60,256 nucleotides of DNA, from contig JAKIWG010000009.1 of the NCBI GenBank assembly GCA_022750155.1, positions 11,816 to 72,071 on the forward strand, read 5' to 3'. Shown here piece by piece: positions 34,963 to 46,113 of this stretch. Positions within the stretch are counted from its first letter, which is position 1. Each line of letters opens with the position of its first letter. A program made the translations under genes and the position numbers. The DNA is from Thermoplasmata archaeon. GTDB taxonomy: Archaea > Thermoplasmatota > Thermoplasmata > Lutacidiplasmatales > UBA184. The notes under the pieces were generated by a model that saw only the letters and a list, made by a program, of their open reading frames with translations, was not told where the DNA came from and made no database searches.

Positions 34963-36291
34963 CTACGGGACGCACCCTGAGTTAGTGTAGTCGTCCCCGT
35001 TGAACTCCGCGAAGCCGTAGTCCTCGTACAGGTCGGTTTCGGTGACGGTCACCCCGTTCACGGGGTCGTAGAAGACGATGACCCCGGTCGAAGTGGAGTA
35101 CGAGATGATCACCGATGGCCCGAGCGCCCTGTGGAGGGAGCTCAGGGTGGACGATGGGATGGAGGCATTGTCCTTCTGGCAGACCGAGGTCGACACTCCG
35201 CTCCCGCCACCCCCCGGTGGAGCCCCCCCCGGGGAGGTCACAAAGATCGGGGCGGGGCTGTTCAGCGGGTCGTACGTCAGGGCGGCCACCCACCCGACCA
35301 GGAGCAGTACAGCGACGGCGGCCACGGCCCGCCGCGGGAGCGACCATCGCGCAGAGCCAAGGGGACTCTTCCTCCGCGAGGTGAACCGGCCGAAACCCTT
35401 CTCCCGGGTGGATGGGTTCGGCGCGGCTCGGCGGCGCAGCGCCACCGATAGGGTGTTGCCCGCGAACAGGGCCACGAGAACTGCGAGCGTGGGGAGTACT
35501 ACCGGCAACAGGGCCGCCCCGGCAGCCACCACGCCGGAATAGAGAGGCTGGGCTCTCGGGTCCGAAGGGGCGGTCCGTGGTTCGGTGACCATGAATAGGG
35601 CGAAGAACAACACCGCCGGGTCGATGGTGGCGAGCAGGAGCACCTGGGGCACCAGCGCTCCCCCTACGAGCTGAGCCGAAAGCACGCGTTGCAGGACTGC
35701 CAGTGCGGCGTACGCGCCCAGGAAGCTGACCGGGATCCTCCAGGCCCGGAGATTCCAGAGCAGCAGCAATACCCCCAGGGCGAGCAGCAGCTCCACATCG
35801 ATCGCGGCCCACCACGCGGGAGCGAAGCCGAACAGGAATGCCCCGAGGACGACCCCCACGCCGGCAGGATTCAACCACGGGCGACCGCGATACCGGAGCG
35901 TGTGCTTCACGGTGATCGCCGCGACCGTGACGGCGATGGCTCCCGCCAGGGGGACGATGGGAGGCAGGATCAGGGCCACGAACAGCCCGGTGGCGATCGC
36001 CCCATCGGGAATCCGGATCGAATCGAACCGGGCCTTCTGGAACGCGACGTCGACGAGGATGGCCGTCAGGGGAAGGGCAATGGCCGTCGCTACACCCAGC
36101 CCCCCGCCGAGGAACTCGAGGCCGTATGCGGAGAGCACGACCAGGCAGATCCAAAGAAGACGGGGTTGCGGGAGGAGGGACCGGACGCGTCGGAATCCGT
36201 GGGCGATGACCCCTCGTCCTCTCGATGTTACGGCGTTGGGCGAGCCCGTCGCTCCCTTCGGTTCCGAAGGTTCGGACGCGACCTCGCCCAT
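34963..36291 (-). CDS. NqrB/RnfD-like membrane protein with an external tail
   Basis: 442 residues. About nine hydrophobic helices in residues 40-290 resemble the NQR2/RnfD/RnfE family: TVKHTLRYRGRPWLNPAGVG and ALFMVTEPRTAPSDPRAQPLYSG match the conserved NPA and TDP/TEP loops of RnfD. The FMN-threonine motif (S/D-G-A-T) typical of NqrB/RnfD is not seen. After a basic cytoplasmic loop, a further helix (about 325-343) leads to an external domain of about 100 residues with glycines and two cysteines. No other Rnf/Nqr subunit is nearby, so this is an orphan. Function is uncertain: flavin- or quinone-linked electron transfer is possible. Confidence 0.65.
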   Translation of the reverse strand: MGEVASEPSEPKGATGSPNAVTSRGRGVIAHGFRRVRSLLPQPRLLWICLVVLSAYGLEFLGGGLGVATAIALPLTAILVDVAFQKARFDSIRIPDGAIATGLFVALILPPIVPLAGAIAVTVAAITVKHTLRYRGRPWLNPAGVGVVLGAFLFGFAPAWWAAIDVELLLALGVLLLLWNLRAWRIPVSFLGAYAALAVLQRVLSAQLVGGALVPQVLLLATIDPAVLFFALFMVTEPRTAPSDPRAQPLYSGVVAAGAALLPVVLPTLAVLVALFAGNTLSVALRRRAAPNPSTREKGFGRFTSRRKSPLGSARWSLPRRAVAAVAVLLLVGWVAALTYDPLNSPAPIFVTSPGGAPPGGGGSGVSTSVCQKDNASIPSSTLSSLHRALGPSVIISYSTSTGVIVFYDPVNGVTVTETDLYEDYGFAEFNGDDYTNSGCVP

Positions 36292-36358
36292 CGTCGGAAG
36301 CCCAACGATCCACCGCTCATAGAGTTTCGAGTCCGAGCTCCCCGAAGGGCCAAAGTCG

Positions 36359-36366
36359 ACAAATAC
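36359..36366 (+). promoter_or_regulatory. TATA-like box of the 36387 gene
   Basis: ACAAATAC, centred about 24 bases before GTG 36387, consistent with leaderless initiation and the reason for choosing that GTG. Confidence 0.55.
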
Positions 36367-36386
36367 GCTCGTCCGCTAGGTCGAGC

Positions 36387-36842
36387 GTGACACCTCCTGT
36401 CAAGGCCCGCAGCGGCCACATCCTCCTGGAAGGCAAGCGATCGTACAAGGACCTCGTCAAGGTCTACCCCGATATCCACCGCAAGTTGGTCGAGGTGAAC
36501 AAGCCGTTCACCAAGGAGACCGAACCCATGCTGCCGGAGGTCCTTCTCGAGGAGAACATGCGGGACCTGAGGGCGGACCGTAAACCGGCCGGCTACAACC
36601 GCCCGGACGCGTTCGCCATGCGACTCATCTTTCCCATCCACGAGGAGCGACGGACCGAGTTCTACTTCTCGAAACCGGCGCGGTGCCAGGAGGTCGTTCA
36701 GATCACCGAGCAGATCTCCGCCCTCCTCAAGCGTCGCGGGGTCCGACACAGTGTCGAGTACGACCGCCTCCAGCTCGGAGCCCCGCGGGGGGTCCCCGGT
36801 CTCCCGCCGATGGGGAGCGGGAGCGCCTCGGGACTCCCGTAG
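36387..36842 (+). CDS. Conserved-looking hypothetical protein
   Basis: 151 residues from GTG 36387. I do not recognise the family. The text is protein-like: HILLEGKRSYKDLVKVYPDI, a charged central helix EVLLEENMRDLRADRKP, FAMRLIFPIHEERRTEFYFSK and a second helical segment EVVQITEQISALLKRRGVRH; the last 25 residues are glycine/proline-rich. Mixed alpha/beta, soluble, no cysteines except one. It converges on the giant repeat protein and has its own promoter. Function unknown. Confidence 0.65.
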   Translation: MTPPVKARSGHILLEGKRSYKDLVKVYPDIHRKLVEVNKPFTKETEPMLPEVLLEENMRDLRADRKPAGYNRPDAFAMRLIFPIHEERRTEFYFSKPARCQEVVQITEQISALLKRRGVRHSVEYDRLQLGAPRGVPGLPPMGSGSASGLP

Positions 36843-36853
36843 GTCGGCCGCTC

Positions 36854-39800
36854 CTAGGGGTTGGAGTCCGGCCGACGGAACGGCCACATCCCGGCCGGGG
36901 CCTCGCCGCCCTTGAGTTGCCCCTGGAGCATCGTCAGGGCTTCGCGGGCCTTCTCGAGGGCCTGGGCGTAGTCGGTGACCCGCAGCCGGATCGACTCGTC
37001 GAGCGCCGAGCGCGCGGGCGTCACGTCGAGGTGACGCTCGTGGGCGCGGACGAGCGCTGCGTCGATCAGGTAGTGGATGTTCATGAGTTCGCGATGCATC
37101 GACTTGCGGCGGTTGAGCTCCTCGTCCGCGGCCAGAAGGGCCTGCGCGGCCTCGATCTCCCGGCCCGCCGCGCGGCGCTCCTCGACGAGGGCGAGGGTCT
37201 GCGGAACGCTCCCGACGCTGACGTGGAGCCCCTCCTGGGCGAAGGTGAGCTCGGTCTGGACCTCCCGTAGCCGCTCCCCCACCCGTTGCTTGACCAGCGA
37301 GGTGAGCTGCAGGTCGGCCCGGCCGAGGAGGGGCGGAACCTCGGATAGCTTGCCTCCCTCGAGGGCGAGCTTCGCTTCGCTGAACAGCTCCATGACGGGC
37401 GTCGTGTCGAGCCCGAGCTTTTCCCCGACCCAGACCCGGTCCTTCAGCTCGTTCACCCGGTGGCCGAGCCCCTGGCGCCATCGTTCCGTCAGCCGGTGGG
37501 ACTCCTCCCCGAGGGCGGCGAGCGCCCCGGGGTAGTTCCGCCGGGACATCTCCGAACTGATGCGTTCGGAGGCCTGCCTTCGGAACTCGACCTCCTGCGG
37601 CGGGGCCTCCCCGTCGTCATGGTAGAGCTTCGGAAGGGCTTCGAGCCGTTCCGAGAGAAGGGTGTCGAGCGAGCGGAGGGCCGCCTCGCGCGCCGCGGCC
37701 AGCCCGTCGCCGGCCCGTTTCCACTCGCGAGCCCGCAACGCGGCCTCCGCCTCCTCGAACGGTCGCCGCACGGCGGCGAGCTCGGTGCCGGACTGGGCCC
37801 CCTCGGCCGTCTCGAGCAGGTGACGGACCTCGGCGAGGGCTCCGGAGTACTGCTTGTCGATCGCCCACAGGGCCCGCTCGGCCACCTCTCGGGCCTTCGG
37901 GATCGTCTCGAGGTACTCCCCGGCGTCGGCGTGGCGGCGTGCGAGGTCGAGCGACGAGACGACCTCGCCCAGGTCGGCTCCCAGCTCCATCGCCTCCTTG
38001 ACCTGCCGGTCGGCGGCGTCCAGCGCCTCGCGGGCGCGCCGGTGCTGCTCCCGCCCGACGGCGATGAGGTCGGCCGCGACGATCGCGAGCTCGAGGACCT
38101 GGGGATACTCGTGACGGTGGAAGGCACTGCGCGCCTTGTGCAGCTCGGCCTCGGCCGCGGGGAGCTTCACGCCGTGCTGGACGGCGTTGCCGAGCTTGCC
38201 CTCGACGGTCTCGAGGGAGCTCTGGGCGATCCGGAGCTGGAGCTCGACCCGTTCGATCTCCCCCTCGCTGCGGGCCGCGAGCTGCAGCGCGTCGAACGGA
38301 TGGCCGTCGTTGAGGGCCGTGCGTGCCTGGGTGAGGAGGTTGTCGGCGAGCGTCGCGTCGCTCCCGCCCTGACGGGCATGGACGACCTGCGCCTGGAAGC
38401 CGGCGAGGGTCTTGGAGACCTGCTGGTAGGTGGCCTGCGTCAGCTCGCGCTCGACGGAGGCGGCGAGCTCGATGACCTTCGCGTAGGAGCGCTCCCCGAG
38501 CAGCACCTCGACCTTCTCCATCGTCGCCCGGGCCGCGTGGGCGTCGACACGGACGAGCTCGGCTTCGTTGAGCGCCTCCCGGGCCCTCTTGGTCGCCTTC
38601 TGGGCGTGCTCGAGGAAACCGCGGGTCTCGATGAGCTGGCTCCGCGCATGTTCGATCCGCTCGGCCGCCCCGGTGGGGACCTCGGCGGAGAGGTTCCGGC
38701 GGGCGTCCCCGAGCGAATCGAGGACCTCCGGCGCCTCGACGCCCGCACTCCGCGCGAGCTCGAGGTCGGCGGTGAGCAGTCGGAGGTTCTCCTCCAGGAC
38801 CGGACGCAGCCTGAGGACGATCTCGGCGAGGAGCGCCTTTGCGTGGTGGATCGCGGGGGCGGTGCTCGGCTCGGCCAGTTCGACCGTCACCTCCGCGGCC
38901 CGCCGCGTGAGCTCGTCGGTCGGTACGGACATCCTCCGGGCATCCTCCAGGAGGAGTTGGGAATCGGACAGAAGCCGGCCCGCGATCGCGCGGTCTCGGG
39001 CCTCGGTCAGGGCCGCCGTCAGTTGGGCGAGCGCCGACGCCGCCTGCTCGAACTCGAGCGCCTGGTACAATTGCTTGGCTTCCCCGATCTTCTCCCTCAG
39101 GGGGTCGACGGGCAACCCGAGCTCCTTCGTCGCCTGCCAGAGCTCGGTGGCGTCCGAGAGCGCGTCCAGCACTCCCTGCGCACTGGACCGAAGCTTGTGG
39201 GCCCCGCTCTGGGTCTCCGTCGCGAGGCGGTACGCGTCCGGGTACTTCTGCAGCCGGGCCGCCTCGTGGGCGGCCTCGAGCGAGCCGCGAAGCGACCCCG
39301 TGTCGAGGCCCATCTTCCCGAGCTCGACGAGAGCGAGCTTGGCGTGGGAGACCGCGTCCTCGCTGCGCAGCAACTGCTGCTGGTGCGCCCGGGTCCGGAT
39401 CTCCTGGCTGGCCCGGGAGGCCTTGACGAAGTCGCCCATGTTGAAGATCTGCTGCACCTCGTCGATCTGTCGCTGGATCTCGTCGCCGGTCCCGCCCATC
39501 GCCTCCAGGGCCCGCCGCTCCTCCTCGAGCTGCTCGACGAGGGAGGAGGCGCGCGCCGCAAAGACGGCGGAAAACTCCCGCTCGGCCCGCTTGAGCGCCT
39601 CCATCGACCCGGTGAGGTCCTCCTTCACGCGCAGGTTGACGTCGGCGTCGGCGAGGAGCCGGCGGACCGGGCGGACGAGAGCCTCGTCCGGGATCTCCGC
39701 GAACCCCTTCTCGATCTCCTCGACCCGGCGGGCGACGTACGGACCCGCGGCGGTCCGCAGGCGGACCTCGAGGGACGCCAACAACTCTCCGGCATCGGCG

Positions 39801-41308
39801 AGCTGGCCCTCCTCCAGGAAGTTTCGGGCATGGAGGATCTCGTCGGTCACCCCGTCCGGTAGGAACCCGCGTTCCTGGGCGAGGGTCGCGACGCGGTCGA
39901 GCGCGATCTGTTGGAGGGAGAAGTGGGTGAACGCCTCGCGGCCCAGCGAGTGGACGGTCTCCTGAAGCTGCTTCCGCGCGGCCTCCAGCTCGATCCGGTC
40001 GAGGAAGGAGGTCACGTGCTTGAGCTGCTCGTCGAAGGGTGCGGTGGGGAACTTCGCGGAGGCCAGCCGCGTGAGCAGCGCCTCCAACGACTCGGCCTCC
40101 TCCCGGGCGGAGTCGAGGTCCTCGGTCAGCTGGCTGACCCGCTCGACGGCCTCCTGGCTCGCCGCCAGGGCTTCGCTGTAGATCTTGAGGCGCAACGCCT
40201 CCCGGGCGCGGTTCATCGCCGCGAACACCTCCGACGGGTCGCGCCCGAGCCGGCGGGCCTCGACGAGCCGCGGGCGCACCTCGTCGAGCAGGCTCGCGAC
40301 GACGGCGACGACCGGCTCCTCGGTGAGCTGCCGCGCCTTGGTCAACAGTCCGGGCAACTCGGCCGGCCCCGCCGTTCGGACGGGGGCGAGCAGCTCCTCG
40401 ATGCCGATGAGGCTCGAGGTGGGGTCCACGCCCTGCTCGCGCAGGGAATGGAGCGTCGCCCGGAGGGACTCGATGGCGGCCTGAACCCGGTCCCGGAGCA
40501 GGTCGGCGATCTTGGCGTTCTCCGCCTCGACCGCGGGAACGGTCCGGTTCCAGGTGGTGGGCACCGCCTCGGCGTCGCCCTGCAATGCGGCCTCGAGGTC
40601 GGCGGAGGGGACCGAGAGGTCGCGGGCGGCGGCGACCAGGGCCGCGCCGGCCGCCCGGGCCGAGTCGCGGCGGGCTTTGGCCAGGGGCAGCTCGTTGGAG
40701 ACGACATCGTTGAGGCGAGCCACCGCGTCGGCGAATCCGCCGGTATGGATCGTGTCGAGCACGGCGCGGAACCGGGCGTCCAACTGGGCGGGGCGTTCGC
40801 CGGTTTCGCCCGACCACTCGGCGATCGCCATCGCCTCGCCGCGCAACCGGCCGCTGAACTCCGACTCGGCGAGCCGGATCCCCTCCTGGAGCCGAGAGAG
40901 CGGTTCGAGGGCCGAAATCCACGGCCCGTCCACCGTCGGCTGCTGGGCGTCCTTCAGGAGCGGGAGCAACTCGGAGGGCAGGGTGGCTCCGAACTGGGTG
41001 AGCCGGTCCCCGCGTTCGGCGATCTCAGCGCGCCGCCGGAAGAACACGCCCGAGCCGCTCGCCGAGAGCGAGTCCTGGAAGGCCTTCGCCTGGGTCTCGA
41101 GCGATTCCCACTCCGAGCGCCGGGCGAGGTCACGGAACGCCGCTTCCTTCTCTTTCCAATCAGGGACCGGCAGGTCGAGGAGCCCCAACAGTCGGACGGC
41201 CTCCTCGACCTCCTTGAGGGCGACCTCGGCGGTCGCGCGCCGCTTCTTGAGGATCTCCGCCTTTTCCTGGAGGATCTTGGTCAGACGAGAAGAGGGGAGG
41301 GTACCCAT
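36854..41308 (-). CDS. Giant helical-repeat / coiled-coil protein
   Basis: 1484 residues, almost wholly helical and rich in A, E, L and R, with no signal peptide, membrane segment or nucleotide-binding motif. It is built from at least eleven diverged repeats of roughly 80-100 residues. Each has a GLD-x4-L-x2-A-x3-L-x4-Y-x2-A-x2-L-A pattern, for instance GLDTGSLRGSLEAAHEAARL, GADLGEVVSSLDLARRHADA and GLPVDPLREKIGEAKQLYQA. The layout recalls spectrin- or TPR-like rods. It probably forms a long intracellular rod or scaffold; partner unknown. It lies downstream of aIF5A on the same strand, about 140 bases away, with a separate TATA-like TTTATATC element near 41401-41408. Confidence 0.8.
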   Translation of the reverse strand: MGTLPSSRLTKILQEKAEILKKRRATAEVALKEVEEAVRLLGLLDLPVPDWKEKEAAFRDLARRSEWESLETQAKAFQDSLSASGSGVFFRRRAEIAERGDRLTQFGATLPSELLPLLKDAQQPTVDGPWISALEPLSRLQEGIRLAESEFSGRLRGEAMAIAEWSGETGERPAQLDARFRAVLDTIHTGGFADAVARLNDVVSNELPLAKARRDSARAAGAALVAAARDLSVPSADLEAALQGDAEAVPTTWNRTVPAVEAENAKIADLLRDRVQAAIESLRATLHSLREQGVDPTSSLIGIEELLAPVRTAGPAELPGLLTKARQLTEEPVVAVVASLLDEVRPRLVEARRLGRDPSEVFAAMNRAREALRLKIYSEALAASQEAVERVSQLTEDLDSAREEAESLEALLTRLASAKFPTAPFDEQLKHVTSFLDRIELEAARKQLQETVHSLGREAFTHFSLQQIALDRVATLAQERGFLPDGVTDEILHARNFLEEGQLADAGELLASLEVRLRTAAGPYVARRVEEIEKGFAEIPDEALVRPVRRLLADADVNLRVKEDLTGSMEALKRAEREFSAVFAARASSLVEQLEEERRALEAMGGTGDEIQRQIDEVQQIFNMGDFVKASRASQEIRTRAHQQQLLRSEDAVSHAKLALVELGKMGLDTGSLRGSLEAAHEAARLQKYPDAYRLATETQSGAHKLRSSAQGVLDALSDATELWQATKELGLPVDPLREKIGEAKQLYQALEFEQAASALAQLTAALTEARDRAIAGRLLSDSQLLLEDARRMSVPTDELTRRAAEVTVELAEPSTAPAIHHAKALLAEIVLRLRPVLEENLRLLTADLELARSAGVEAPEVLDSLGDARRNLSAEVPTGAAERIEHARSQLIETRGFLEHAQKATKRAREALNEAELVRVDAHAARATMEKVEVLLGERSYAKVIELAASVERELTQATYQQVSKTLAGFQAQVVHARQGGSDATLADNLLTQARTALNDGHPFDALQLAARSEGEIERVELQLRIAQSSLETVEGKLGNAVQHGVKLPAAEAELHKARSAFHRHEYPQVLELAIVAADLIAVGREQHRRAREALDAADRQVKEAMELGADLGEVVSSLDLARRHADAGEYLETIPKAREVAERALWAIDKQYSGALAEVRHLLETAEGAQSGTELAAVRRPFEEAEAALRAREWKRAGDGLAAAREAALRSLDTLLSERLEALPKLYHDDGEAPPQEVEFRRQASERISSEMSRRNYPGALAALGEESHRLTERWRQGLGHRVNELKDRVWVGEKLGLDTTPVMELFSEAKLALEGGKLSEVPPLLGRADLQLTSLVKQRVGERLREVQTELTFAQEGLHVSVGSVPQTLALVEERRAAGREIEAAQALLAADEELNRRKSMHRELMNIHYLIDAALVRAHERHLDVTPARSALDESIRLRVTDYAQALEKAREALTMLQGQLKGGEAPAGMWPFRRPDSNP

Positions 41309-41446: not shown

Positions 41447-41833
41447 TCAGGTCCGGGTGATCCGTCGGCGGCCCATCGCATCGAGGTATTGGATGTCCGT
41501 TCCCGGCGACAGGGAACCCTTCATCTCGGCGTCGATGGGGAGCGCGAAGGTCTCGTAGCTCTCGAGGTCCATCAGCTGGACCTCCGTCTCCGTCATCGAG
41601 AGCACCTGGGCCTGCCGTTTGCCGATGAGCGGGACCTGCACCTTGTGCTTGACCGGGAACACCACCGAGCGCTTGGACCCGTCGAACAGTCCGACGGCAT
41701 CGATCCGGGCCTTCGCTTCCCCGTGCTTTCCGGGTTTGGACATCTGGATCGAGAGGATCCGGCACGGTTCCTCCTCGATGAGCATGTACCGGCCCTCCTT
41801 CAACTCGCGGACTTCCTGCTGCGTCCACGCCAT
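41447..41833 (-). CDS. Translation initiation/elongation factor aIF5A
   Basis: 128 residues from ATG 41833. The hypusination loop SKPGKHGEAKARI carries the modifiable lysine K36 in the invariant S-K-x-G-K-H-G context. The N-terminal SH3-like barrel and the C-terminal OB-fold (VQLMDLESYETFALPI) are complete. aIF5A relieves ribosome stalling on polyproline and other difficult motifs. The frame extends nine codons upstream but without conserved text. Divergent from the pseudo-synthetase gene, whose product carries a long proline-rich linker of the kind that depends on IF5A. Confidence 0.95.
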   Translation of the reverse strand: MAWTQQEVRELKEGRYMLIEEEPCRILSIQMSKPGKHGEAKARIDAVGLFDGSKRSVVFPVKHKVQVPLIGKRQAQVLSMTETEVQLMDLESYETFALPIDAEMKGSLSPGTDIQYLDAMGRRRITRT

Positions 41834-42018
41834 CGAAGGTTCCCTCGGGTCGGGGCACACGGCCCGAGGAATAAAGCTTGCTCCGAAGCCGAACCCACCC
41901 GCCTGCGGAAGGGCACCTCCACGCGCTCCGGTGCGTCACCGGAAGTCGCACGAGGGTTTATGCCAATGGCAGGCCATCGAGCGCTGGCGGGTCCCGCCCG
42001 ACGGACCCGACCTCACGA

Positions 42019-45000
42019 ATGCAGGCGCTGGCCGAACGGTTCGATCCCCCCGCGATCGAAGCCGCCACCCGCGCGTTCTGGGCCGGCCGAGCGGCCCTCA
42101 GGAACGAATCGCGACTGGGTCCGCCCGGGGGACCCACCACCCACGAGATCGTGGGCACCCTCTTCCCGACCGACGACCCCTTCGCCCTATGGCATCGGGA
42201 GCTGCTCGCCGATGTCGAAGCCCGATACCTCGCCCTCGCCGGCCGACGAAGCTGGTCGACCGTCCAGGTCGTCGCGGGCCAAGGTCCCCCGCTCCCCGAG
42301 ATCCTCTCGACCCTTCGGAACGATGGTTTCCACCTCGAGATCGACCACATGGTCCCTCCGGAGCCGGAGGCCCTCAACGCGCTACTTCAGGGGCTCGTCG
42401 AAGGGCTCGCGAGGCGGCGGCTGCTCGTCTGCCGGGAGGCAGTGGCGATGTCGTGCCCCCGTTGCCGGCTCCCCCGCAGCCCCGAGGCGATCATCTACCA
42501 GCAGGACGACGGGCCTGCGTACCTACTGCGATTCCCCATCCGGGGCTCGCCGACGAAGGCCAGCCTCCTGGTGTGGACCGACTACACATGGCGGTTGCTC
42601 GGCACGACCGCGATCGGGGTCAACCCGGATCAGGCGTACGTCACTGGCCGATTCCGTCGGCGGGAGACCGAGGAGGTCATCGTGATCGCGAAGGAGGCGA
42701 TCCCCCGACTGCACGAATGGCTGCCGGGAGGGGAGTTCGAGATCCTGGAGGAGCGCACCGGTGCCGCATGGGCAGGCACTGGGTACGACCACCCGCTCAG
42801 CGTCGAGTACCCGGCGATCGCCGACCTCACGGCCCCGGCGGGCACCGTCGTGGCGGCCCCGGAAGTGACCCTGGGCGGTTCGGGCCTCGTCACGCTCGTC
42901 CCCGCCCACGGGACCGCCGATGCCGCGGTCGGGGCCCGGTTGGGCCTCCCGGGTCTCCCCGTGACGACCGCCGATGGCCGCATCGGACGGGTGGTGATGC
43001 ACAAGTACGCCGGGCTCCCGCTCGAGATCGCCGAAGCGTTCATCCTCCGGGACCTGAACGATGGCGGGTCGATCTTCACGGAGCTGAGGACTCCCCGCGG
43101 GGTCCCTCACTGCGTGGCGTGCGGCAGCCCCCTCATCTGGCTGCCGGCCCGTACGTGGTTCCTCGAGCCGGGCCGCCTGGCTCCCGAGCACCTCCAGCAA
43201 TTTGCGCGGCTGCTCCCCGGCGAGCCGGTCCCCACGATGAGCGATCTGGTGGGCTGGGTGGCGGCGAAGGGGTCGGTCACCTCCGACGGTTCGGACCCCA
43301 CCCTCCTGGAGTGCGACCGCTGCGAGCTCCTCGCGTCCCCCGAAGAGGCCGGCGAGTGCCCGTGCGGGGGAAACCGTCAGCTGGCGAGCCGGGGACTCGC
43401 GACCGCATTGAGGGAGACCATGACGGCGTGGGCCCGACATCAGCCGTTCCAACCGGGCGACCCGGTCGACCTGATCCTCCCCGATCGACGCCGGGCCCCG
43501 GCCCTGGTCCATCACCTTGCGGCCATCGCGGCCTCCGGGGTCCGGATCGGCGAGCTGCACCTCCTCCGCGTCCCGACCACCCGCCCGCCCGATAAGCCGG
43601 GGGAGACGCCGCGAGGGATCGACGCACGCCGGGTCGCCCTGGTCCGCACGCTCCGATCCCCCCGGGTGGGGAGCACCTTGGCCGACCGCGAGCTGCGGGA
43701 AGCGCGTCGGCTCGCCCGAGCCTGGCACCTCGTCCGGAGCGTGGTCGACCAGGCGCTGCGCGACGGGTATCTCCCCTCCGGCGAATCCCTCGCGAACCAC
43801 CGGGGCGAGCTCCTCGAGGAGGATGCCGCATTCGTCTCCGTGTTCGAACGGATGCGCGCCCAGGTCCTCCGCCAGTACCAGGACGGCCACTTGGGCGAGG
43901 CCGCGGGTACCCTGGGCGATTTCCTCGAGCGGGACGTGCGCGGGGATTACCTGCGACTCGTCGGTCCGCGGCTTCGAACCCCCGGTCTCGGTCCGGCCAA
44001 AGTGTCGGTCTACCGGGTGCTGTGGCATGTGCTCCCGCTCTGGACCGAGCTCTACGCGCCGGTGGCCCCGTTCACGATGGAGGCGGTGCACCGGGCGTTC
44101 CGGGGCGACGCCCAGAGCGTGTTCGAGCGGACGTTCACCCCGGTGCAGGAGACGCTCATCGATTCAAAGGCGGAGGAGGCCGCGCGACCGTGGCGCCAGG
44201 TGGTGGACGGCCTGGCGAGGGCGAGAAAGGAGTTCGGGATCAGCCGGGAGGCCCGGTTGGAGAACGCGGTGCTGGTCGCGCGTGAGGAGGAGATGGGCGG
44301 GGCGCTCCGGGCGAGCCTGCCGATGCTCTCGCGTCTCGCGTTGGTGACGAACCTTCAGATCGCCTCGCCGAGCCAGCCGTGGAACGGGGCCCAGTTCGTG
44401 GCGACCCCCGTCCTCGACGAGATCCATCGGGTGTACCCGAGCGAGAGCGCCCGGATCGCCCGACTTCTTCAGCAGATCAAACCGAGACGCATCCAAGAGG
44501 GGCTCGCCGGCGGGAACCTCAGCGTGGCCCTCGACGGCCGATCCCTGCAGATCCTCCCGGGCATGGTGGAGATCTCCGAGTCCCTCCCCGAGCACACCGT
44601 CGTGGTGCCCTGGGCGGGCGGTGAGATCTACCTCACCCTGCCTTCCGTCGTCCTTGGCAGCGACGCCGAGCGGCCACCGGCGGTCTCGGTGGAGGCGTCC
44701 CAGATGCTCCGCGAGGTGCGCCGTCGACTGACCCGGATCTCTCCGCACGAACCGCCCCCGCGGGCGGTGATGGCCGCCTCCGGTGCGCTCTCGAACGAAC
44801 TCGCGGCGCGAACCGCCGCATCCGCCCACTACCTCGGCGTCGGCGATCTCACGGTCTCCCCGTCCGACGAGCGGTTCGTCCGGTCGGAGACGATTAGGGG
44901 CCGGACCCGTCGGGGTGCCCCATGGGCCGTCTGGTTCCCCGGGGTACTCGTCCCGCGGCGCCCCCGAAAGCGCCGGACGCCCCGCTCGGGAACCCCGAGG

Positions 45001-46113
45001 GTGCGCGTCCTCGAGGTCGGGCAGGAAGGGGGCGATGTGGATTTCCTCAGCGAGCCGGTAGTGCATCAGGCAGAGACCATCCGGTCGATGCTCGAGCAGC
45101 TGGACTCCGTCGTCGGTCGACCGTTCGTCGGCCCGACGAAGCTCGCCAATGCGTGGGCCGTGGGGATCCACGACTACGAGTCCCTCCAGAAGGCGCCGTT
45201 CGAACTTCTCAGCGGAGTTCCGGGGTTCGGCCCCATCGTCGCGGGCGCGGTCGTGCGCTCGTTCGGTGGGACCCTTCCCCCGAGGTCGGCACGAGTGAGG
45301 CCATCTCTCCACCCGTCAACGGCCGCGGCGATCGGCCCTCCCGCGGTTCGCGAAGCGGCGGGCGCTGACCGGCTGGCCCAACCGGTGCAGGCTCCTGTAG
45401 AAGCGACGGCATCGGTTCCCCTCACAGTCCCGGCCGAGCCGCCCCCGCCGGCGGTCGCACTCCCGCCCTCGCCTCCGGCCACCCCGGCCGCCCCCAACCC
45501 ATGGTCCGACAGCCCACCGCCCCCGCCCCCTCCGACATCGACCCCGGTGCAGTCGTACTTCGTGCCATCGACCCCGCCGCCCCGCCCGGTCGAGTTCCCC
45601 GTGGAGGAGCCCTGGTCCCCCCCGACCCCCGCGGTCTTTCCCCTCCCCCCGGACGCGGAGCCCAGGTTCGGAGTGGAGGTCTGGCCCGGTCCGGGTTCCG
45701 ACCCCGCCTGGAGGATGTTCCTCGATGTGACCGCCGGGGGGGTGCGTGGCTTGTGCTTCACGCGGGAGTTTCCGGACCGGGTCCGGGGTGCCCTGGGGAC
45801 CCGGGTGGTCGATGTCGCCTGGCTCTCCAACACGGGGCGGGACGGGTCCGTTCGGCCGGGGGACCTAGACGCCGTCCAGGCCCGGATCGCCCAGGCGGTC
45901 TCCGAGCGAAGGGTGCGGGCCGTCTTCCTCGGAGGGATGGAGTACCTCCTCTCCCTACACGGACGCGAAAAGGTCGCTTCATTCCTACAGGCGGTCGCCG
46001 GGGTCGCCACGGGGGCCAAGGCGAGGGTGTGGGTTCCGGTCAATCCGGCGCTGGTCGTCCCTGGCGCCGCCGAGGAGTTGGCGAGCCAGTTCCCCCCCGA
46101 GGTCTCGGCGTAG
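42019..46113 (+). CDS. IleRS-like pseudo-synthetase fused to HhH and DUF835
   Basis: 1364 residues. Residues 1-760 follow class Ia isoleucyl-tRNA synthetase: N-terminal PAIEAATRAFWAGRAAL, CP1 editing domain (about 180-345) with VWTDYTWRLLGTTAIGVNPD and VPAHGTADAAVGARLGLP (D301 kept), the VPHCVACGSPLIWLPARTWF block, zinc-like pairs C146/C149, C365/C368, C432/C435 and C447/C449, and an anticodon-binding helical domain (TLGDFLERDVRGDYLRLV, WTELYAPVAPFTMEAVHRAF). The HIGH site is replaced by FALWH (55-59) and no KMSKS is present, so aminoacylation is unlikely. A helix-hairpin-helix (about 1033-1085), a proline-rich linker (1127-1215) and a C-terminal DUF835 domain (about 1225-1355) follow. ATG 42019 is where IleRS similarity begins. 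Function unknown; tRNA editing, tRNA sensing or translational control are possibilities. Confidence 0.85.
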   Translation: MQALAERFDPPAIEAATRAFWAGRAALRNESRLGPPGGPTTHEIVGTLFPTDDPFALWHRELLADVEARYLALAGRRSWSTVQVVAGQGPPLPEILSTLRNDGFHLEIDHMVPPEPEALNALLQGLVEGLARRRLLVCREAVAMSCPRCRLPRSPEAIIYQQDDGPAYLLRFPIRGSPTKASLLVWTDYTWRLLGTTAIGVNPDQAYVTGRFRRRETEEVIVIAKEAIPRLHEWLPGGEFEILEERTGAAWAGTGYDHPLSVEYPAIADLTAPAGTVVAAPEVTLGGSGLVTLVPAHGTADAAVGARLGLPGLPVTTADGRIGRVVMHKYAGLPLEIAEAFILRDLNDGGSIFTELRTPRGVPHCVACGSPLIWLPARTWFLEPGRLAPEHLQQFARLLPGEPVPTMSDLVGWVAAKGSVTSDGSDPTLLECDRCELLASPEEAGECPCGGNRQLASRGLATALRETMTAWARHQPFQPGDPVDLILPDRRRAPALVHHLAAIAASGVRIGELHLLRVPTTRPPDKPGETPRGIDARRVALVRTLRSPRVGSTLADRELREARRLARAWHLVRSVVDQALRDGYLPSGESLANHRGELLEEDAAFVSVFERMRAQVLRQYQDGHLGEAAGTLGDFLERDVRGDYLRLVGPRLRTPGLGPAKVSVYRVLWHVLPLWTELYAPVAPFTMEAVHRAFRGDAQSVFERTFTPVQETLIDSKAEEAARPWRQVVDGLARARKEFGISREARLENAVLVAREEEMGGALRASLPMLSRLALVTNLQIASPSQPWNGAQFVATPVLDEIHRVYPSESARIARLLQQIKPRRIQEGLAGGNLSVALDGRSLQILPGMVEISESLPEHTVVVPWAGGEIYLTLPSVVLGSDAERPPAVSVEASQMLREVRRRLTRISPHEPPPRAVMAASGALSNELAARTAASAHYLGVGDLTVSPSDERFVRSETIRGRTRRGAPWAVWFPGVLVPRRPRKRRTPRSGTPRVRVLEVGQEGGDVDFLSEPVVHQAETIRSMLEQLDSVVGRPFVGPTKLANAWAVGIHDYESLQKAPFELLSGVPGFGPIVAGAVVRSFGGTLPPRSARVRPSLHPSTAAAIGPPAVREAAGADRLAQPVQAPVEATASVPLTVPAEPPPPAVALPPSPPATPAAPNPWSDSPPPPPPPTSTPVQSYFVPSTPPPRPVEFPVEEPWSPPTPAVFPLPPDAEPRFGVEVWPGPGSDPAWRMFLDVTAGGVRGLCFTREFPDRVRGALGTRVVDVAWLSNTGRDGSVRPGDLDAVQARIAQAVSERRVRAVFLGGMEYLLSLHGREKVASFLQAVAGVATGAKARVWVPVNPALVVPGAAEELASQFPPEVSA

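Follow-up and report, generated by a model that had tools for sequence, protein, structure and literature searches.

A stretch of 60,256 nucleotides from a Thermoplasmata archaeon of the Lutacidiplasmatales (contig JAKIWG010000009.1, positions 11,816 to 72,071), referred to here as the window, contains at 42019..46113 on the + strand a gene for a relative of isoleucyl-tRNA synthetase (IleRS) that lacks both signature motifs of tRNA charging, HIGH and KMSKS, and whose synthetase body is followed by a helix-hairpin-helix (HhH) region, a proline-rich linker and a DUF835 domain. We show from sequence comparison with its relatives that this gene descends from a Thermoplasmata IleRS of the ordinary kind in which HhH and DUF835 were already present, and it is well supported that the catalytically stripped product has been retained as a functional protein. 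The likeliest mechanism, to which we give a probability of about 0.42, is that it would act in trans as a reader, and perhaps as a deacylase, of aminoacylated tRNA-Ile; we favor this reading because selection is centered on the CP1 editing domain, where it has rewritten the residues on which the fate of cognate Ile-tRNA depends.

The gene is a single open frame of 1364 codons (ATG at 42019, stop at 46111-46113), and its product is a whole IleRS fold by homology, with a match along the whole length and an anticodon-binding domain. A structure model of residues 1-1085 based on 53 aligned rows (predicted local distance difference test score, pLDDT, 87.1; predicted template-modeling score, pTM, 0.77) matches the full-length type 2 IleRS 8c8v in Foldseek (E 3.0e-45, template-modeling score 0.57 over the query), with yeast IleRS-tRNA entries also matching; a sequence search of the PDB aligns residues 129-386 with the editing domain of Thermus IleRS (1ile; 1.1e-21); and Anticodon_1 (43822..44262, +) is one of two Pfam families that score above their cut-offs (5.1e-12, 46.3 bits against a cut-off of 25.1), the other being DUF835. 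These matches confirm the IleRS-like body with CP1 and anticodon-binding domain that a preliminary description of the window had proposed. The NCBIfam ileS family TIGR00392 matches at 6.1e-35, yet with 120.6 bits against an equivalog cut-off of 621.4, and the class I catalytic family PF00133 gave no match in the window protein. The same description had reported that HIGH is replaced by FALWH and that KMSKS is missing, and indeed the HIGH site reads FPTDDPFALWH, neither motif was found in the window protein or in 13 aligned relatives from the genus, and the alignment provided no equivalent of either. A shrunken Rossmann fold is still predicted in the model. A separate, intact IleRS with PHLGH and KMSKS is encoded in the same genome (G000:C43:110985-112832), as is a ValRS (C43:199156-200781).

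Long relatives at 36-46% identity are present in 13 of the 20 other genomes of the genus, and 71 of the 103 genomes of the window's family contain relatives; across the whole order, matches at E <= 1e-40 were obtained in 74 of 106 genomes, three of which belong to other families. Of the 39 genomes of the order with a completeness of 90% or more, 26 match, so that loss of the gene is real in some of them. A direct search of named genomes with the whole protein gave no match, and a search by family alignment yielded 64 loci in named records, mostly entered as Thermoplasmata archaeon, with one Candidatus Lutacidiplasma silvani; the core alignment used below consists of the window protein plus 52 of these 64 loci, the 12 truncated ones being excluded. 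In six pairs at 76-81% identity the ratio of nonsynonymous to synonymous substitution rates (dN/dS) is 0.10-0.19 overall, 0.07-0.12 in CP1 and 0.19-0.50 in the N-terminal Rossmann half, and because of the overall values we conclude that the protein is under purifying selection. Together, the motif loss, the separate intact ileS and this selection uphold the earlier suggestion of a retired synthetase kept for another use. The 64 homologous loci in other named records, with DUF835 present in all 38 that have a complete 3' end, likewise exclude that two genes have been joined by misassembly.

Relatives across the class reveal the origin of the fusion. Long IleRS-matching frames (about 1240-1825 aa) are common in a class-wide search, and a fused IleRS-DUF835 protein is the only ileS match (E <= 1e-88) in 23 of 80 class genomes, 18 of which are at least 90% complete. 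One motif-intact fusion, L212, contains the Pfam families tRNA-synt_1, Anticodon_1, DUF5915, HHH_5 and DUF835 in a single protein. We compared 85 IleRS-like genes (72 genes from the 80-genome search and 8 further regions were retrieved, a selection from the genes present in these genomes): DUF835 is present in 42 of the 51 members of a fused lineage, A, and in none of the 33 members of a second lineage, B, with one odd gene besides. In a quick tree with long branches, a branch with support of 100 separates lineage B and the odd gene from the rest. All 56 window-family proteins analysed score higher with a profile of intact lineage A genes than with one of intact lineage B genes, by a median difference of 108 bits; the working IleRS of the window genome belongs to lineage B. 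In a phylum search of 194 genomes, frames outside the class reach 1153 aa among the matches listed, and confinement of the fusion to the class is a result of the sample searched. As to whether all the motif-less fused copies reflect one ancient origin or repeated decay, the quick tree joins long branches, which the tree program flagged.

Two other origins were entertained and dropped. The working IleRS of the window genome as the parent is contradicted by the preference of 56/56 window-family proteins for the fused lineage profile, and addition of DUF835 after retirement by the motif-intact fusions that are common in the class. Nor did the fusion arise only once the enzyme had been retired: the IleRS-HhH-DUF835 arrangement is old, and in other families of the class it is catalytically intact and often supplies the sole IleRS match of a genome.

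In none of the 17 genomes with two analysed IleRS-like genes are both motif-intact. A degenerate A copy lies beside an intact B gene in families f1, f2, f3, f6, f9, f13 and f18, and in f24 a degenerate A copy lies beside a contig-cut intact A gene; the f3 copies have kept HIGH and lost KMSKS, and the f2 copy has lost both. Family f5 presents the mirror case (L239, L242, L246, L249), with the fused A gene intact and the unfused B gene without KMSKS in 4/4, and in f20 (G128) the copy without motifs is the odd second gene. This odd gene (L245) falls outside both lineages and has a HIGH and KMSKS that are not intact and an editing site that is. The fused copies of f3, f13, f18 and f24 and the unfused copies of f5 still score above the TIGR00392 cut-off, and their inactivity, read from the KMSKS loop (and partly HIGH) alone, is thus less secure than inactivity in the window family. 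Motif calls among the 85 genes were made by pattern, by which two f25 genes (HLGN, HMGQ) score as HIGH-negative though their genomes have no other IleRS match.

Within the window family, the most conserved part of the protein is the CP1 editing-type domain (residues 130-400; 42406..43218, +), with its conserved Cys pairs. Mean identity across the 53 rows is 0.54-0.61 in CP1 versus 0.36 in the N-terminal Rossmann half, an eroded part of the catalytic domain (residues 35-122; 42121..42384, +), with 0.39 in the anticodon domain. The order is the reverse of that in true synthetases: nine IleRS of the window's family have 0.57 in CP1 and 0.67 in the Rossmann halves, and eight pseudo-family rows have 0.47 and 0.29.

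The residues at the editing site vary in a consistent manner, and we number them as in E. coli IleRS, the numbering being transferred by motif spacing from what we take to be the sequence context around its editing residues. The equivalents of T246, H333 and D342 are all kept in 67/67 motif-intact IleRS, and the editing site of the genome's own active IleRS is complete; of the editing residues of functional IleRS (T241-T243, T246, H333, D342), only D342 is fully kept in the window family. In GSGLVTLVPAHGTAD (residues 287-301; 42877..42921, +) the D342 position is Asp in 53/53 rows, and the H333 position is Pro in 32, Thr in 10, Ala in 7, another residue in 4 and His in none. In the remodelled threonine-rich peptide WTDYTWRLLG (residues 186-195; 42574..42603, +) Thr is never found at the T246 position, which has Arg in 29 rows and Lys in 24; the T242 position is Asp in 53/53, and the T243 position is mostly Ala. 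Loss of the charging motifs is accompanied in several lineages by loss of the His at H333, with the amino-group anchor kept; two f5 copies, for example, have Ala at T246, Ser at H333 and Asp at D342, a combination by which E. coli IleRS hydrolyses Ile-tRNA in trans. In E. coli IleRS, according to PMC9023258, H333 and T246 protect cognate Ile-tRNA-Ile from hydrolysis, a T246A/H333A enzyme hydrolyses it at 14 per second, also in trans, and D342 holds the aminoacyl moiety by its amino group. The pattern in the window family thus speaks against ordinary proofreading of Val-tRNA-Ile, as the T243 and T246 positions have changed, and a reader or deacylase of cognate Ile-tRNA-Ile would be a possible match to it.

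The rest of the synthetase body comprises the C-terminal half of the Rossmann domain, without a KMSKS loop (residues 405-545; 43231..43653, +), the anticodon-binding domain, and a region (residues 751-975; 44269..44943, +) that aligns by model and fold match with the C-terminal, tRNA-binding part of type 2 IleRS. The tail has the order and domains given in the preliminary description, HhH, proline-rich linker and DUF835, although the linker is about 120 residues long (45274..45633, +, by sequence), not 90. The HhH region (residues 1012-1081; 45052..45261, +) scores weakly in Pfam, with HHH_2 at E 0.031 and 14.9 bits, below its cut-off of 27, and its helices are present in the structure model; HHH_5 matches relative L061 at 3.8e-5 (24.5 bits against a cut-off of 27). 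DUF835 (PF05763; 45709..46047, +) is recognized at 1.3e-13 (51.3 bits against 33.1), and Pfam finds it in 39/39 rows including the window (E <= 0.001). Its model (pLDDT 92.9) has KaiC and FlaH as best PDB matches (E about 3e-5 to 5e-5), and no Walker A motif was found in any of 39 DUF835 rows; having no P-loop, it does not qualify as an active KaiC-like ATPase. DUF835 had been called uncharacterized, which does not stand: PMC5847659 lists it as an inactivated KaiC-like domain and gives it an output role in archaeal response regulators, in fusions with REC and PAS domains. A genome search found no second DUF835 protein in the window genome. In f6, L251 has three HhH stretches and a search of it revealed no DUF835, so that some motif-less copies have not kept this domain. 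A motif-less fused copy, L247 (G126), has a tetratricopeptide stretch between HhH and DUF835 (residues about 1533-1584).

The divergent neighbor of the gene encodes the translation factor aIF5A (41447..41833, -; Pfam IF5A-like_N 1.8e-14). Among the 57 loci with at least 900 bases upstream, 54 have aIF5A on the opposite strand within 600 bases; of the remaining three, two have it at about 2.4 kb and one lacks it within the available 1.4 kb. The intergenic region (41834..42018 in the window; median 152 bases in 57 sequences) contains two conserved TATA-like blocks, one per direction, which are putative promoters: GAGGGTTTAT (41952-41961), towards the window gene, and GGAATAAAGCTTGC (41868-41881), towards aIF5A. 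Beyond aIF5A lies a gene for a 1484-aa protein with no Pfam family above cut-off (36854-41308, -), to which similar genes occur at 57/64 related loci, and then a small gene without a Pfam match (36228-36842, +), which has strong matches at 41/64 loci, up to 99% identity (L105) and about 80% in others.

Once a second, unfused IleRS lineage had taken over, or come to share, charging, the fused copy lost HIGH and KMSKS with purifying selection persisting. We propose that the window protein would no longer make Ile-tRNA; it may use the anticodon, C-terminal and HhH parts that it has retained to bind tRNA-Ile, and offer the tRNA 3' end to a CP1 site in which the residue that holds the amino group has been kept and those that exclude isoleucine have been lost. 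Aminoacylated tRNA-Ile would there be read, or slowly hydrolysed, in trans, the inactive KaiC-like tail would pass the signal on or recruit a partner, and synthesis of the protein might be coupled to that of aIF5A. A narrower version, a dedicated trans-acting reader or deacylase of Ile-tRNA-Ile by which the level of correctly charged tRNA-Ile is set or sensed, a synthetase thus turned to the opposite task, is unlikely.

Several observations count against a trans-acting reader or deacylase. The main point against hydrolysis is the Arg or Lys at the T246 position; together with Asp at the T242 position it may close the pocket rather than widen it, and Val is present in 22/53 rows at the T241 position, whose residue places the 3' OH. 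In the pseudo-lineages f6 and f9 CP1 is the least conserved part (0.24-0.30), and the D342 residue has been lost in all four f9 genes, so that a function for CP1 cannot hold for every lineage; of 17 other motif-less copies, 3 retain H333 and 11 retain D342. Conservation of the anticodon domain does not exceed the average (0.39). The 32 of 103 family genomes without a copy, some of them 93-97% complete, indicate that the gene is not essential, and aIF5A was not found at the f2 and f3 loci of the fused gene, such that the pairing belongs to the window's family.

Among the alternatives, the foremost is a sensor of uncharged tRNA-Ile resembling Gcn2, which contains a HisRS-like part; the dead body would bind deacylated tRNA, DUF835 would relay the signal, and CP1 would be structural only. 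The complete tRNA-binding architecture and the output role of DUF835 in archaea agree with such a sensor, as does the finding that in f6 and f9 conservation is highest in the C-terminal and anticodon parts (0.49 and 0.39), yet CP1 is the best conserved part in the window's own family, with its Asp in 53/53, and the protein has no kinase or other effector and no further DUF835 in its genome; on balance we consider it rather unlikely. Next in rank, and also unlikely, is a role without catalysis in which the protein pairs with the active IleRS or joins a larger translation complex, with the body as scaffold or dimer partner and DUF835 as an oligomerization module. KaiC-like folds do oligomerize, at least one of the two genes has lost motifs in all 17 two-gene genomes, the f5 mirror case included, and the pairing with aIF5A is conserved; against this, the family has been lost from some genomes that retain the active IleRS.

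Proofreading of Val-tRNA-Ile in trans, in the manner of the free-standing archaeal ThrRS-ed, is more doubtful than any of these. It would account for the kept D342 and for CP1 being the most conserved part, and free-standing editing is known for ThrRS (PMC7373986); however, the threonine-rich peptide has been rewritten, the editing-dead E. coli mutant is T243R with D342A (PMC9023258), and the genome's own active IleRS has a complete editing site, which leaves no gap to fill. That the protein still charges tRNA through an unusual active site is very improbable: the shrunken Rossmann fold of the model and the HIGH kept in f3 relatives would be in keeping with it, but HIGH and KMSKS have both been lost, the genome has an intact IleRS, and no domain is less conserved than the N-terminal Rossmann half. 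We give almost no credence to a pseudogene or assembly artefact, for which motif loss alone would speak, given that the frames are open in 64 named loci, dN/dS is low, and the promoter blocks and the neighbor are conserved.

The class offers a natural series that starts with a working IleRS-DUF835, continues with copies that have HIGH and lack KMSKS (f3) and ends with copies in which both are missing (f1, f2), and genomes in which the fused enzyme is the only IleRS match stand beside it. Because selection has kept the non-charging part after charging was lost, the series isolates the role of that part in a DUF835-bearing IleRS, and it lends itself readily to testing in nature the idea of negative catalysis at class I editing sites. 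It also links to translation an inactive KaiC-like domain that is otherwise listed with archaeal signaling proteins, and a second IleRS gene without charging motifs yet under selection suggests a protein that reads or controls charged tRNA. A literature search, mostly without subscription papers, found nothing on Thermoplasmata IleRS paralogs or pseudoenzyme synthetases and a single paper that mentions DUF835; on IleRS with KaiC it found one unrelated cyanobacterial paper, and on duplicated archaeal IleRS one conceptual paper. The main text of the Lutacidiplasmatales paper PMC9287336 contains no mention of tRNA synthetase, isoleucyl or DUF835.

With type 2 IleRS (TIGR00392; 8c8v, 8wnd) the window protein shares the fold from the N-terminus to the C-terminal tRNA-binding domain, CP1, the zinc-type Cys pairs and the anticodon domain, and it differs in the absence of HIGH and KMSKS, the score far below the family cut-off, and the added HhH and DUF835. 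Archaeal ThrRS-ed is likewise a synthetase relative without charging that accompanies a charging second copy (PMC7373986); there, however, the charging copy lacks editing, whereas here the active IleRS has kept its editing site and that of the dead copy has been rewritten. HisZ, Gcn2 (both named in the same source) and other dead or repurposed paralogues also reuse a synthetase body for regulation, although theirs are class II bodies with neither CP1 nor DUF835. The DUF835 tail conforms to the inactivated KaiC-like domain, scoring above the PF05763 cut-off, with KaiC and FlaH as best folds and no Walker A, but the fusions listed in PMC5847659 are with REC/PAS response regulators and not with a synthetase. 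Finally, the motif-intact IleRS-HhH-DUF835 proteins of other Thermoplasmata families (for example L212 and G140) have the same domain order, and the profile comparison ties the window family to them; they differ in having a HIGH-type motif (HxGT) and MSKS, and in being the sole IleRS match in their genomes.

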